A stretch of DNA of 64,000 bases from a bacterium (GTDB taxonomy: Bacteria; Electryoneota; Electryoneia; Electryoneales; Electryoneaceae): contig JAHLLH010000006.1 in NCBI GenBank assembly GCA_020444265.1, positions 124,001 through 188,000 on the forward strand, in the 5' to 3' direction. Of the stretch, positions 33,686 through 46,133 are shown one piece after another (within the stretch, counting starts at the first letter, position 1; each line of letters begins with the position of its first letter). A program made the translations under genes and the position numbers. The notes beneath the pieces were generated by a model. The model was not told where the DNA came from, ran no database searches, and saw nothing but the letters and a program-made list of their open reading frames with translations.

Positions 33686-33820
33686 TCCTGGAAGCTGCAT
33701 CGAACACCACCACCTCCCCGCTCCGCTTGCTCAGGACTACCCCACTCGCTACGTTTCCCACGATGACACTAAACCGGGGAGCGCCCGCGATCGTTCCCCT
33801 TTCCAGCTTTGGAGAAGGGC

Positions 33821-35692
33821 ATGACCATTGATACGAAAAAAGAGTTCCTTTCCTCTATTGAACTCTTTGCCGACTTGAACAGGGACGAGCTGGAAGATTT
33901 GCTCGCCCACATGAATGAACGATCCTTCACTCCTGAAGAGCTCTTGTTCGAGGAGAACACCCCGCGCCTCAACCTTTTCCTCATCCATCAGGGCAGTGTC
34001 GAATTGTTCAAGCAAACAACAACACGTGACGAAACTCGTCTCGCTTTGTTCGGCTCAGGGGACTTCCTCGGAGAAGGCGCGTTGATGGATGATTACCCCC
34101 ATTCGACGGGGGCTCGTGCGCTGGAACCGACTACTGCCCTCACCATCAGCCGTGCTGAATTTCAGGAGATGTTTGAACGGTTCCCCGGGATCGGTGCAAA
34201 GCTGCTGTCACGTATTGCGCGGGTGATCTCGAGACGGATGCGTCAAACGAGCACTCGTGTGGTCAACGCTGGCGCACAGTACATCTCGGGCAGGACCCGG
34301 GCCGAGCATGACCTGTTGGGTGACCGTGATGTCCCCTACGAATTCTACTATGGTGTCCAGACCCTGCGCGGCCTTGAAAACTTCAACATCAGTGGCATTC
34401 CGCTCTCTCATTACCCGGATATGATTGTCGCGCTGGCGCGTGTCAAGATGGGCGCTGCGCTGGCGAACCACGAGCTCGGGCTGCTGAGTGACGAAGTCAA
34501 AGATGCGATTGTCGAAGCGTGCCAGGAAATCATCGACGGCAGGCTGCATACCCATTTTGTCGTGGATATGATCCAGGGCGGAGCAGGTACTTCAACCAAC
34601 ATGAATGCCAATGAGGTCATCGCCAACCGTGCCCTCGAATTGATGGGCCATAAGAAGGGCGAGTACAAGCATTGCCACCCGAACAACCATGTCAACTTGT
34701 CGCAATCGACCAACGATGCTTACCCGACCGCGATGAAACTTGCACTGCTGGAGGCAAACGAGAAGCTGGTCGACGTATTGGAGAGCCTGATCGACTCCTT
34801 CCAGCGAAAAGGACGTCAGTTCGGGCAGGTCATCAAGATGGGTCGTACCCAGCTTCAGGATGCTGTCCCGATGACCCTCGGGCAGGAATTCGAAGCCTAC
34901 GCTGCCACCCTGGGCGAGGAGATTCAACGGCTGCGTCAGAACGCAGATCTCTTCCTCGAGATCAACATGGGCGCGACAGCAATTGGCACCGGGATCAATT
35001 CCGACCCCGATTATGCGCCATCCGTTACCAACCACCTGGCAACCATCTCAGGCTATGACCTGAAACTCGCGCCCAACCTGGTAGAAGCGACCCAGGACAC
35101 CGGCAGCTTTGTGATGTATTCGAGTGCGCTGAAAAGGCTTTCGGTGAAATTGTCGAAGATTTCCAACGATCTCCGTCTCCTCTCCAGCGGCCCGCGTGCC
35201 GGGTTCAACGAGATCAACCTGCCGCCGATGCAACCGGGTTCGTCCATCATGCCCGGAAAGGTCAACCCGGTCATTCCTGAAGTGGTCAACCAGATCTGCT
35301 TCAAGGTGATCGGCAACGACCTCACCGTCACCCTCGCCGCCGAAGCAGGTCAGCTCGAGCTGAATGTGATGGAACCGGTGATCGTGCAGAGTCTTTTCGA
35401 GTCGATTGAGATGCTGAAGAACGGCATGGCGACCTTACGCCTCCGCTGCATTGACGGCATCACGGCAAACGAGGAGCGTTGCCGTGAGCTGACCCTCAAC
35501 AGCATCGGCCTGGTTACCGCACTGAACCCGACTCTGGGCTATGAGGTCTCCACCCAGCTCGCAAAGGAGGCACTGCAAACCAATCGCGGTGTCTATGATC
35601 TCGTGCTGGAGAAAGGCTTGATGAGCCAGGAAGAGTTGGATGACATCCTCAAGCCTGAAAACATGATCAAGCCGAGGAAGATGAAGAAATAA
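33821..35692 (+). CDS. aspA: Aspartate ammonia-lyase with an N-terminal cyclic-nucleotide-binding-type domain
   Basis: ATG 33821 with GGAGAAGG at 33811-33818 gives 623 residues, about 150 more than ordinary AspA. Residues ~10-140 are a cNMP-binding (CRP-type) beta-roll with the cassette GDFLGEGALMDDYPHSTGARA (~80-100): the Glu is kept (E85) but the Arg that grips the cyclic phosphate in CRP is His here. Residues ~160-615 are a full fumarase/aspartase-superfamily enzyme starting EHDLLGDRDVPYEFYYG, with the signature GSSIMPGKVNP at 473-483 carrying the catalytic serine. It should deaminate aspartate to fumarate and ammonia. The fused domain may gate activity by a ligand; what it binds is unknown. 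A strong hairpin follows. Confidence 0.9.
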   Translation: MTIDTKKEFLSSIELFADLNRDELEDLLAHMNERSFTPEELLFEENTPRLNLFLIHQGSVELFKQTTTRDETRLALFGSGDFLGEGALMDDYPHSTGARALEPTTALTISRAEFQEMFERFPGIGAKLLSRIARVISRRMRQTSTRVVNAGAQYISGRTRAEHDLLGDRDVPYEFYYGVQTLRGLENFNISGIPLSHYPDMIVALARVKMGAALANHELGLLSDEVKDAIVEACQEIIDGRLHTHFVVDMIQGGAGTSTNMNANEVIANRALELMGHKKGEYKHCHPNNHVNLSQSTNDAYPTAMKLALLEANEKLVDVLESLIDSFQRKGRQFGQVIKMGRTQLQDAVPMTLGQEFEAYAATLGEEIQRLRQNADLFLEINMGATAIGTGINSDPDYAPSVTNHLATISGYDLKLAPNLVEATQDTGSFVMYSSALKRLSVKLSKISNDLRLLSSGPRAGFNEINLPPMQPGSSIMPGKVNPVIPEVVNQICFKVIGNDLTVTLAAEAGQLELNVMEPVIVQSLFESIEMLKNGMATLRLRCIDGITANEERCRELTLNSIGLVTALNPTLGYEVSTQLAKEALQTNRGVYDLVLEKGLMSQEELDDILKPENMIKPRKMKK

Positions 35693-36808: not shown

Positions 36809-38416
36809 TTAAATCACCGTATCGCGAGCCCCAAGGATGTTATCAATTCTCGGAAAATCGGTGGTGTAATGCAGGCCGCGGCTTTCTTTCCGCTGACGTG
36901 CGCACTTCACAATCATACGGGCTACTTGGGCCAGGTTGCGCAATTCGACCAGATCCGGGCTCACCGTGGTCCGTCGCCAGTAGTCCTCGACCTCGGCGGC
37001 GATAGTGGCAAGCCTTCTTGCGGCACGTTGCAAACGCAAATCGCTGCGAACAATCCCGACATAGTCTTCCATCAGTACTTGGATCTCACGTCGATCATGT
37101 CGAATCAAGACCCATTCTTCCGGATCGTAGGTGCCGCTGTCATTCCATTCGGGAATGTCCGGCATCGATTCTGTACGGCATTCCTCGAGCAGTTTTTTAG
37201 CCTCGTCCGCTGCACGGTGCGAAAAAACCACCGCTTCGAGCAGCGAGTTGGAGGCCAGGCGATTGGCGCCATGCAAGCCAGTATGCGCCACTTCACCGGC
37301 GGCGAAGAGACGATCCAGCGTGCTGCGTGAATGCATATCGGTCACGACCCCACCGCACTGGTAGTGCGCTGCTGGAACCACCGGGATCAGTTGACAGGTA
37401 AAATCGATATCGTGTTCGGCCATCAGGGTTTCGAAGATCATCGGGAAGCGATTTCGCAGCTCATCGCTATCCAGGTGGGTCACATCCAGCCAGACATGCT
37501 CGAGACCCCATTTTTTACGCTCCGAGTCGATCGCACGAGCGACAACATCTCGCGGCGCCAATTCCTTAAGCGGGTGCTGCCCCTCCATGAACCGTTCGTG
37601 ACGATGATTCAGCAGGATGCCGCCAAAGCCACGGACTGCTTCGGTGATCAGGAAGGCGCGACCGTCTACATCACGGCGTGGATCGTACAAAGCAGTCGGA
37701 TGGAACTGCATGAACTCGAGGTTGGCGATTCGTGCCCCGGCACGCCATGCCATCGCAACACCGTCGCCGGTGGCAATCGAGGGGTTGGTTGTATTGGTCC
37801 AGACACAACCCATCCCGCCGCTGGCGAGCAGGGTGATATGGCCCTGGATCAAGTCGACACGGCCCGTTTCCTGGTTATAGACATACGCGCCGTACACCGT
37901 GCGGCTTTTTGGACGACTTGCGCTGACAAGGTGACGGTCTGTAACAAGGTCCACCGCGAGGGCATTTTCCCACAGCTCAACTTGCGGGTGATTTTTCAAC
38001 GCTTCCAGCAAGGCGTGCTCGACTTCACGGCCTGTGTAGTCTGCCTTGTGAACAATCCGGTTCGCGCTGTGCCCGCCTTCTCTTCCCAGCGAGAGGTTTC
38101 CATGCTCTTCGGTAAACTCCGCGCCCCACTCGATCAGGCGACGGATCCGGTCAGGACCTTCGGTCGCCACTGCACGAACAGCGGCATCTTTACATAATCC
38201 CGCACCGGTCACCAGGGTGTCCTTGATGTGGAGATCGATGGAATCATCGTTCCCGATTGCCGCAGCAATCCCACCCTGCGCGTAGTTTGTCGCCGATTCC
38301 GCCTTGTCCTTTTTGGTCACCACCATCACCGTGGCGGAGTCCGCCATCTCAAGGGCAAAGCTCAGTCCGGCAATACCGGAACCGATCACCAGAATGTCGA
38401 ATTCCTGCTTGTTCAC
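36809..38416 (-). CDS. nadB: L-aspartate oxidase
   Basis: GTG 38416 was chosen because it overlaps the histidine-kinase stop (GTGA); this gives 535 residues, the usual NadB length. FAD-binding GSGIAGLS (12-19), the substrate-domain segments NYAQGGIAAA, FMQFHPTALYD and LITEAVRGFGG, and the closing GANRLASNSLLEAVVF are all present, followed by the helical succinate-dehydrogenase-like C-terminus. It oxidises L-aspartate to iminoaspartate, the first step to quinolinate and NAD; NadA and NadC are not in the window. It ends a run of five minus-strand genes. Confidence 0.93.
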   Translation of the reverse strand: MNKQEFDILVIGSGIAGLSFALEMADSATVMVVTKKDKAESATNYAQGGIAAAIGNDDSIDLHIKDTLVTGAGLCKDAAVRAVATEGPDRIRRLIEWGAEFTEEHGNLSLGREGGHSANRIVHKADYTGREVEHALLEALKNHPQVELWENALAVDLVTDRHLVSASRPKSRTVYGAYVYNQETGRVDLIQGHITLLASGGMGCVWTNTTNPSIATGDGVAMAWRAGARIANLEFMQFHPTALYDPRRDVDGRAFLITEAVRGFGGILLNHRHERFMEGQHPLKELAPRDVVARAIDSERKKWGLEHVWLDVTHLDSDELRNRFPMIFETLMAEHDIDFTCQLIPVVPAAHYQCGGVVTDMHSRSTLDRLFAAGEVAHTGLHGANRLASNSLLEAVVFSHRAADEAKKLLEECRTESMPDIPEWNDSGTYDPEEWVLIRHDRREIQVLMEDYVGIVRSDLRLQRAARRLATIAAEVEDYWRRTTVSPDLVELRNLAQVARMIVKCARQRKESRGLHYTTDFPRIDNILGARDTVI

Positions 38417-39594
38417 GTCGGCAGCACCATCCGTATCGTGGTCCCCTCCCCGGGCTTTGTGCTTTTTACAAACAGCCTGCCACGGTGCATCTCTTCCACG
38501 ATGCGCCGTCCGAGGGAGAGGCCCAACCCCCAACCACGTTTCTTCGTTGTAAATCCGGGACGGAAAATCGCTTCCGTATTCCGGAGGGAAATCCCTCTGC
38601 CATCATCAATCACGTCTACATAGACCTCACCGTTCAGCGTGCCGGTCTCGACAATGATTGTCCCCTTCCCTTCCATAGCCTGGGTCGCGTTGCGCAGTAG
38701 GTTTTCCAACACCCAACCGATCAACTCCGGCTGTATGCCTGCCTCCCCAGCGCCTTTGTCGCGCACATCGATGCGGATCGTGCTTCCTACACGACCACGC
38801 ATGTAGGTCACAGCCTGGTTGACGACGTCACTCAACGCCAGCCGTTGCAGTTTCTCGCGCGTACCGATTTTCGAGAAACGAACCGCAATTTTTTCGAGTC
38901 GACCGATGTCCTGCTTCATCGATTCGGTAATCTCGCCCTGGTCGCCCAACACCTCGACCCAACCCATTAGGGAAGAGATCGGTGTGCCAAGCTGATGCGC
39001 GGTTTCCCGGGCCATCCCGACCCAGACCGAACGTTCCTCGGCCTTCCGAATGACACGGAAGCCGACATAGCCGATCAGGATGTAGATCGCCACAGCAAGC
39101 GCGCTGACCAGCGACATGGTTCGCAGTAGAGTGACCAGTTTCGGATCACCGTAGTGAAAGTAATCCACTTGGCCCGGAACCACCTCGAGCGCGAGAGGCT
39201 CATTGCCTTCAGCACGTGACTCGGCGATAAAGGTACGCACCTTATTCATCGCTTCGGGGCTGAAGTCTCCCGGCTCAACGTCAAGATTACGCCAGAATTT
39301 CGGATTGCCGACCGAATCGGCGAGGACAATCGGGAAGTCGATCCCCTGAACTGCTTCATAGGCGAGCTCTGGATTGTCCCCGATCAGCAGGTTGCGGTAG
39401 TATTGGACGGATAGGCTGAGGTAAGATCGTGCCGAATCGCGTACCTGACGCACCAGCAGGTTGGTCGAGAGGAAAAGGGCCGCCGTCAGCAGAAGGGCAC
39501 CCACAAAGAGGAAACCCTTGAATAGTCCTGCCCGACGCAACTGCATCGGCACACCTGTTTGCAGGGACCGTGTCCGCTGGGGATGCCTGCTCAT
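38413..39594 (-). CDS. Membrane sensor histidine kinase, PorY-like
   Basis: 393 residues. TM1 (~25-47), a ~110-residue periplasmic domain, TM2 (~158-180), then a compact kinase core: H200 in the H-box ARETAHQLGTPISSLMGW, N-box ENLLRNATQ (~297), G1 DDGRGI (330-335) and G2 GWGLGLSLGRRI (354-365). There is no HAMP or PAS domain. The length, topology and the H-box and KKRGWGLGLSL segments resemble the Bacteroidota kinase PorY, cognate to PorX, whose homologue is at 47468; the assignment is inferred. It overlaps both neighbours by four bases (ATGA with GT4, GTGA with nadB). Confidence 0.85.
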   Translation of the reverse strand: MSRHPQRTRSLQTGVPMQLRRAGLFKGFLFVGALLLTAALFLSTNLLVRQVRDSARSYLSLSVQYYRNLLIGDNPELAYEAVQGIDFPIVLADSVGNPKFWRNLDVEPGDFSPEAMNKVRTFIAESRAEGNEPLALEVVPGQVDYFHYGDPKLVTLLRTMSLVSALAVAIYILIGYVGFRVIRKAEERSVWVGMARETAHQLGTPISSLMGWVEVLGDQGEITESMKQDIGRLEKIAVRFSKIGTREKLQRLALSDVVNQAVTYMRGRVGSTIRIDVRDKGAGEAGIQPELIGWVLENLLRNATQAMEGKGTIIVETGTLNGEVYVDVIDDGRGISLRNTEAIFRPGFTTKKRGWGLGLSLGRRIVEEMHRGRLFVKSTKPGEGTTIRMVLPT

Positions 39595-45144: not shown

Positions 45145-45936
45145 CTACTGCTCCTCATTATACCCGCTGCCAACCCGTTCAAAGATCTGTTGCAGGTATT
45201 CACGCAATTCATCCCCGGTCATCCCACGTGCGAGGAATTCCCCACGATGAGACAGGGATATCTGACCCGTTTCCTCGCTGACCACCACCACTGCGGCATC
45301 GGTCTCCTCAGTCAGGCCGAGGGCAGCACGGTGACGAGTTCCGAGGGTTGCGTCGATGTTGGGATTCTCAGTCAACGGTAGAATACAGGCAGCCGATTCG
45401 ATCAGGTTTCCGCTGATCACAATCGCCCCATCATGAAGCGGAGTCCGTGGGTAAAAGATCGAGACGATCAGTTCGGAGGTTGCTTCCGCCTGCAGTTTAA
45501 CACCGGTATCGATGATGGCGCGCAGGCCCATGTCACGCTGGAGGACAAAAAGGCCGCCATAACGTTTCTGGGATAGCTCGACTGCAGCTTTCACGATTTC
45601 ATCGATCACTCGGGTTGTCGCCACTCGGAAGAGGCGACGGACAATCCGCGCCTGCCCGATTTGGATCAGGAGACGGCGGAGTTCGGGTTGGAAGAGGATG
45701 ACAAAGGCAATCACCCAGACCTGAGATACCGACTGCACCAGCCAGGTCATGCCCTTCATGCCGATCGCACCGACGACAAAGCTGACGACGAGGATCAACA
45801 GCAACCCGAGGAACATCTGCGAGCCGCGTGTGCCGCGCATGATGTCGTAGAGACGGTAAAAGACCACCGTCACCAGGATGATGTCGATCAGGTCGACCAG
45901 GTTGAAGGTGATGAACCCTATGTGGAACAGCTCCAA
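45145..45936 (-). CDS. cdaA: Diadenylate cyclase (c-di-AMP synthase)
   Basis: Start set at TTG 45936, which has GGAGGGG five bases upstream; a longer TTG start at 45966 is possible. 263 residues: three membrane helices (~14-32, 41-60, 66-84), then the DAC domain with DGA at 169-171 (PLHDGAIVI) and RHR at 201-203 (LGTRHRAALG), both needed for condensation of two ATP to c-di-AMP. It is the membrane-bound CdaA/YbbP type. No regulator gene (CdaR) is adjacent. c-di-AMP controls potassium and osmotic homeostasis and cell-wall state in many bacteria. Confidence 0.93.
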   Translation of the reverse strand: MELFHIGFITFNLVDLIDIILVTVVFYRLYDIMRGTRGSQMFLGLLLILVVSFVVGAIGMKGMTWLVQSVSQVWVIAFVILFQPELRRLLIQIGQARIVRRLFRVATTRVIDEIVKAAVELSQKRYGGLFVLQRDMGLRAIIDTGVKLQAEATSELIVSIFYPRTPLHDGAIVISGNLIESAACILPLTENPNIDATLGTRHRAALGLTEETDAAVVVVSEETGQISLSHRGEFLARGMTGDELREYLQQIFERVGSGYNEEQ

Positions 45937-46133
45937 AAACCCCTCCGGGTGCTGTGTGGTTGGCAACCGTCCAAAGGTAGTACGTTAAACGGCTTGGGAA
46001 CAGGGTCAGGCATAGCTGACAGCAGCTTTCAGACCCGTGTCTCCGGGTGCTGCAAAGGAACATCCCCTGCGATTTTCAGCCGCACGACACGACTGTTTCC
46101 GTTACTTTAAGCAACACCCGTATCTTATTTCTA

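Follow-up and report, generated by a model that had tools for sequence, protein, structure and literature searches.

In Pat and Bd1971, a cyclic nucleotide-binding (CNB) domain attached to an enzyme confers cAMP control. The former is a mycobacterial acetyltransferase (4ava; NF058543) and the latter an EAL protein (6hq3); a bacterial pyridine nucleotide-disulphide oxidoreductase (tandem CNB) is likewise covalently joined to the domain in Kannan et al. 2007 (PMC2246266), and the accessible part of the text and table of that survey includes no lyase family among the CNB fusions. Known aspartate ammonia-lyases (AspA; TIGR00839; PDB 6wng, 1jsw, and 1j3u) begin directly at the lyase. The protein described here matches these enzymes throughout the catalytic domain, in its active-site residues and in its fold, but carries about 148 additional N-terminal residues that form a CNB domain and a linker. 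Since CNB-enzyme fusions were already known, what is new, as far as the literature found goes, is the aspartase pairing and an altered pocket: the enzyme differs from those of the oxidoreductase, Pat, and Bd1971, and the pocket is non-canonical. A literature search found neither the CNB-aspartase pairing nor the His94/Arg49 pocket (see below) in any open-library paper; the combination of domains may be on record in automatic databases.

The gene lies within a stretch of 64,000 nucleotides (the window) from a member of the Electryoneota, and its features are as follows.

33821..35692, + strand: CNB-aspartate ammonia-lyase fusion gene, 623 amino acids (open reading frame, GGAG before the ATG, Pfam, NCBIfam)
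33821..34255, + strand: CNB (cNMP-binding-like) domain, residues 1 to 145, C-helix from residue 122 (PF00027 at 33 to 120, AlphaFold2 pLDDT of 86, CRP fold)
33953..33967, + strand: beta2-beta3 loop motif E45-N-T-P-R49, with R49 invariant and at the position of PKA Gly169 (alignment, position mapping)
34070..34117, + strand: phosphate-binding-cassette region G84-E85...P93-H94...A98-R99, with E85 and H94 invariant
34253..34297, + strand: interdomain linker, residues 145 to 159 (alignment conservation, model confidence)
34292..35689, + strand: complete aspartate ammonia-lyase, residues 158 to 623 (TIGR00839, alignment to 1jsw and 6wng, invariant columns)

The start codon is the ATG at 33821, with GGAG upstream at 33811. 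In Pfam, the cNMP_binding domain (PF00027) scored 63.2 bits against a cut-off of 27.5 at residues 33 to 120, followed by Lyase_1 (residues 170 to 498) and FumaraseC_C (564 to 617). Unlike CRP/FNR-type regulators, the protein has no DNA-binding helix-turn-helix detectable by Pfam at its C terminus, where AspA stands instead, so that it does not classify as a transcription factor of that type and its output is an enzyme. The initial annotation had described AspA with an N-terminal CNB beta-roll, and both the Pfam and NCBIfam cut-offs and the predicted CRP-type fold bore this out. With 93 distinct homologous fusions aligned, the open reading frame is a real fusion and an artefact is ruled out.

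The C-terminal part matched the NCBIfam aspA model (TIGR00839) over residues 160 to 622 with 731 bits (cut-off, 681.2), while the fumC model (TIGR00979) reached 480 bits, under its cut-off of 664.75. The closest solved lyase was 6wng (E value of 1e-200). Alignment to 1jsw and 6wng showed conservation of S296/T297/N298, T343/Q344, S474/S475, and K480/N482, and the catalytic S-T-N, GRTQ, and SS-loop GSSIMPGKVNP (signature GSSIMPxKVNP) were intact and invariant or nearly so in 71 rows. By these signatures, this part is an aspartate ammonia-lyase predicted to deaminate L-aspartate to fumarate and NH4+ and, by homology, probably tetrameric like its relatives. The genome encodes one further class II lyase (40% identity), which has the fumarase-type GRTH signature, making the fusion the only aspartase detected in this assembly (94% complete). 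Nine positions within AspA were specific to the fusions, and no mapping of these onto an interface was obtained. The gene for L-aspartate oxidase (NadB) lies nearby on the opposite strand (36809 to 38533, − strand), which places two aspartate-consuming enzymes close together, an arrangement that did not recur at other loci.

AlphaFold2 modelled the whole fusion protein with a pLDDT of 82 and the isolated CNB domain with 86, the latter as a confident beta-roll with a cassette helix (residues 85 to 88) and a long C-helix. Because the Foldseek and VIA lists for the whole model were filled by AspA and fumarase, the CNB domain was modelled on its own and used for a separate search. Its best structural neighbours were cAMP-bound MtbCRP and GlxR (VIA Z score of about 19, rmsd of 1.9, 145 to 147 residues). 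The beta-roll, cassette helix, Gly-Glu, and long C-helix are common to the fusion, MtbCRP (4a2u), GlxR (3r6s), and a stand-alone CNB (3gyd), but in the fusion the cassette Arg is replaced by His and the loop Gly by Arg. A loss of the cassette fold in structure prediction, against which the initial annotation had staked its reading, did not occur, and AlphaFold2 retained a CRP-type domain. The linker (about residues 144 to 156) was modelled poorly (pLDDT below 50), yet residues 149 to 159 had a mean column conservation of 80% in the 72-row alignment, matching that of the enzyme, which suggests contact with another subunit. An NCBIfam model for family 2B encapsulins, which bear a CNB-type insert, also matched the CNB domain of the fusion.

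The pocket was compared using alignments to solved CNB domains, PKA RI-alpha, and E. coli CRP, the last two serving for numbering only; they place H94 at PKA Arg209 and R49 at Gly169. Within the cassette (GEGALMDDYPHSTGARA), Glu85 is retained and His94 occupies the Arg position. The Gly-Glu of cAMP-binding CNB domains is present among the aligned fusions (E85 in 72/72, G84 in 66/72). However, the canonical cassette Arg (PKA R209, CRP R82) is absent, with His94 in all 72 and in 21/21 further distinct fusions, as is the canonical beta2-beta3 loop Gly (PKA G169), replaced by Arg49 in every aligned fusion. The initial annotation had already pointed out that the Glu is retained and the Arg changed to His, and both features proved invariant across the fusions. 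E85, H94, R49, D81, G58, and R139 were invariant in the 72 aligned fusions, whereas CNB columns were 62% conserved on average, and the invariance of H94, R49, and E85 argues for strong selection on the pocket. A check for ascertainment bias was made, since D81 and E85 were part of one scan pattern used to collect fusions and H94 of the second, while R49 was in neither; 30 of the 72 fusions had no match to the H94 pattern, and 21 further distinct fusions collected without any pattern all had H94, R49, and E85. The three residues are kept in all 92 other distinct fusions, a pattern for which these alignments exclude a chance origin.

In cAMP binders, Arg209 of the cassette and Gly169 of the loop co-vary and link the phosphate to the beta2-beta3 loop, according to Kannan et al. 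2007 (PMC2246266). Of 24 CNB paralogues from fusion-bearing and related genomes, 20 had Arg and none had His at position 94; at position 49, Gly occurred in 17 and Arg in none. Judged from the alignments, the Arg/Gly pair has been swapped coordinately to His94/Arg49, within our sample in the fusion family only. A similar cassette in the table of Kannan et al. (PMC2246266) had prompted the idea that the domain came from the CNB-CBS-DUF294 family, which we rejected, as the one alignable DUF294-linked CNB (L197) has neither R49 nor H94. Two Ignavibacterial proteins (L191 and L192) carry a different CNB domain, with the cassette FFGEKEIIKKSNR in L191. A CNB domain that lacks the cassette Arg, as in the fusion, is also found in the cAMP-independent PKA regulatory subunit of trypanosomatids (6hyq), which binds nucleosides and not cAMP (PMC10959531). 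The Glu that is diagnostic of this subunit, at the position of PKA Ala202, is absent from the fusions, where A87 is mostly Ala and otherwise Ser or Val, so this exact solution does not apply to them.

A search of other genomes, as proposed in the initial annotation, revealed that the fusion is no isolated case but an old, conserved family of wide distribution. The 93 distinct fusions came from Electryoneota, Zixibacteria, Ignavibacteriota, Kapabacteria, Calditrichota, Aminicenantes, Gemmatimonadota, and others. An N-terminal pattern scan of the species-genome collection yielded 80 loci, almost every one of which encodes the fusion, with Zixibacteria/GN15, Chloroherpeton, and Bacteroidota-labelled bins among their sources; the aligned fusions shared 56 to 73% identity with the window protein along their length. 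In the window's own phylum, 9 of 39 genomes carry the fusion. A search at an E value of ≤1e-140 in 245 genomes, drawn class-wide around an Ignavibacterial one, found the fusion in 34; about 22 rows were close stand-alone aspartases, and only one genome had both forms. In a lyase tree of 81 rows, 39 of 40 fusions formed one fully supported clade, with a Gemmatimonadota fusion (L113) outside it in the free tree. Holding all fusions together gave a slightly higher likelihood (AU p of 0.52), so that the tree is compatible with a single origin that would include L113. No gene neighbourhood or operon was common to 72 fusion loci, and only lineage-local synteny was found. One complete Zixibacteria chromosome (CP070824.1) carries two fusion paralogues (L058 and L106); the single-frame similarity of L058 stops after 424 of the 623 residues, and its lyase part may contain a frameshift. 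In another genome (G301; C1:894060-894320), the aspartase fusion is the only detectable CNB-domain protein.

We consider the protein probably an allosterically regulated aspartase, with a sensor that would bind a ribose-bearing ligand other than classical cAMP. The N-terminal CNB domain would be a built-in ligand sensor: a small ligand entering the beta-roll would move the cassette and the C-helix, and the conserved linker would relay this change to the N-terminal segment of AspA and set the activity of the lyase, so that the breakdown of aspartate would be tied to a signal inside the cell. A ribose-bearing ligand is suggested by the retained Gly-Glu ribose-binding element (Glu85), and the replacement of the coupled Arg/Gly pair by His94/Arg49 suggests a mode of recognition different from that of canonical cAMP. 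Candidates would be nucleosides, non-cyclic nucleotides, and cyclic nucleotides of an unusual kind. From sequence we infer ligand binding, allostery, its direction, and the kind of ligand, and pocket conservation alone is no proof of allostery. Against the relay stands the model itself, in which the pLDDT of the linker leaves the signal path invisible. A wider reading, which we put forward only tentatively, is that the fusions of at least seven phyla make up a so far unrecognised family of allosteric aspartases, in which the His94/Arg49 sensor reads a signal new to the CNB domains of bacteria (c-di-AMP, a nucleoside, or a non-cyclic purine nucleotide, for instance) and sets the release of fumarate and ammonia from aspartate.

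Nucleotide supply in the carriers bears on the simplest alternative, a classical aspartase controlled by cAMP or cGMP, in which Arg49 would neutralise the phosphate in place of the cassette Arg and a 3',5'-cyclic nucleotide would still be bound. The loss of Arg to His is always paired with the gain of an Arg at the neighbouring loop, and Gly169 touches Arg209 in PKA (Kannan et al. 2007, PMC2246266), so that the phosphate could be within reach of R49. All fusion genomes of the phylum (9/9) encode class III cyclases, our genome having two copies, and cAMP or cGMP is therefore available there, which speaks against a non-cAMP sensor; these cyclases also occur in 18/30 genomes of the phylum that lack the fusion. 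Outside the phylum they were found in 14/25 fusion genomes and absent from 11/25, and a link between fusion and cyclase, suggested within the phylum, fails there. A CYTH-type cyclase was present in 6/14 genomes and a class I adenylate cyclase in 0/26 fusion genomes. Against this alternative, no adenylate cyclase of class I, class III, or the CYTH type was detected on the complete fusion-bearing chromosome CP070766.1 (G061), so cAMP is unlikely as the family-wide ligand unless a cyclase of class II, V, or VI supplies it. We regard cAMP or cGMP control as unlikely, and the suspicion voiced in the initial annotation that the ligand may not be cAMP has been strengthened by the invariant His94, its pairing with an invariant Arg49, and this cyclase-free chromosome. 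In four Electryoneota genomes (L193 to L196), a class III cyclase gene adjoins the gene for a stand-alone CNB protein with the canonical cassette Arg, and the two are likely a cyclase and its receptor. Diadenylate cyclases were too common (24/26 fusion genomes and 11/14 controls) for their distribution to serve as evidence for c-di-AMP as the ligand, and GGDEF (29/30) was equally non-discriminating. The window encodes a diadenylate cyclase, CdaA (45145 to 45966, − strand; TIGR00159, 228 bits, above the cut-off), about 9.5 kb downstream, and the organism presumably makes c-di-AMP.

Some CNB domains bind no known ligand, and the sole role of this one could lie in oligomerisation or docking, by which it would stabilise the enzyme or bring in partners. 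The match to the family 2B encapsulin model would fit such a role, as would the lack of any conserved gene neighbourhood that indicates a signalling partner, but E85, H94, R49, and D81 are among the most conserved CNB residues and docking needs no invariant pocket, which makes a ligand-free module improbable. Less probable still is gas or redox sensing of the CooA type, with His94 coordinating a heme that gates the lyase. CooA-type sensors use Pro2 and a Cys as further heme ligands, but the CNB domain of the window protein has no Cys and its residue 2 is Thr; the Gly-Glu ribose element is also retained. In favour of heme, many carriers are likely anaerobes, and the invariant His94 lies at the heme-ligand position of CooA, whose heme His is structurally equivalent to Arg209 according to Kannan et al. 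2007 (PMC2246266).

Aspartase connects nitrogen, fumarate respiration, and the pool of aspartate. A conserved sensor fused to this enzyme, as many uncultured lineages have it, would let a small molecule switch this node directly. The coordinated change of two residues through which the binding of cAMP is coupled to allostery offers a clean natural test of ligand change in CNB domains. What non-canonical CNB domains sense becomes directly testable here, since the enzyme is soluble and its activity is easily read from the absorbance of fumarate at 240 nm.
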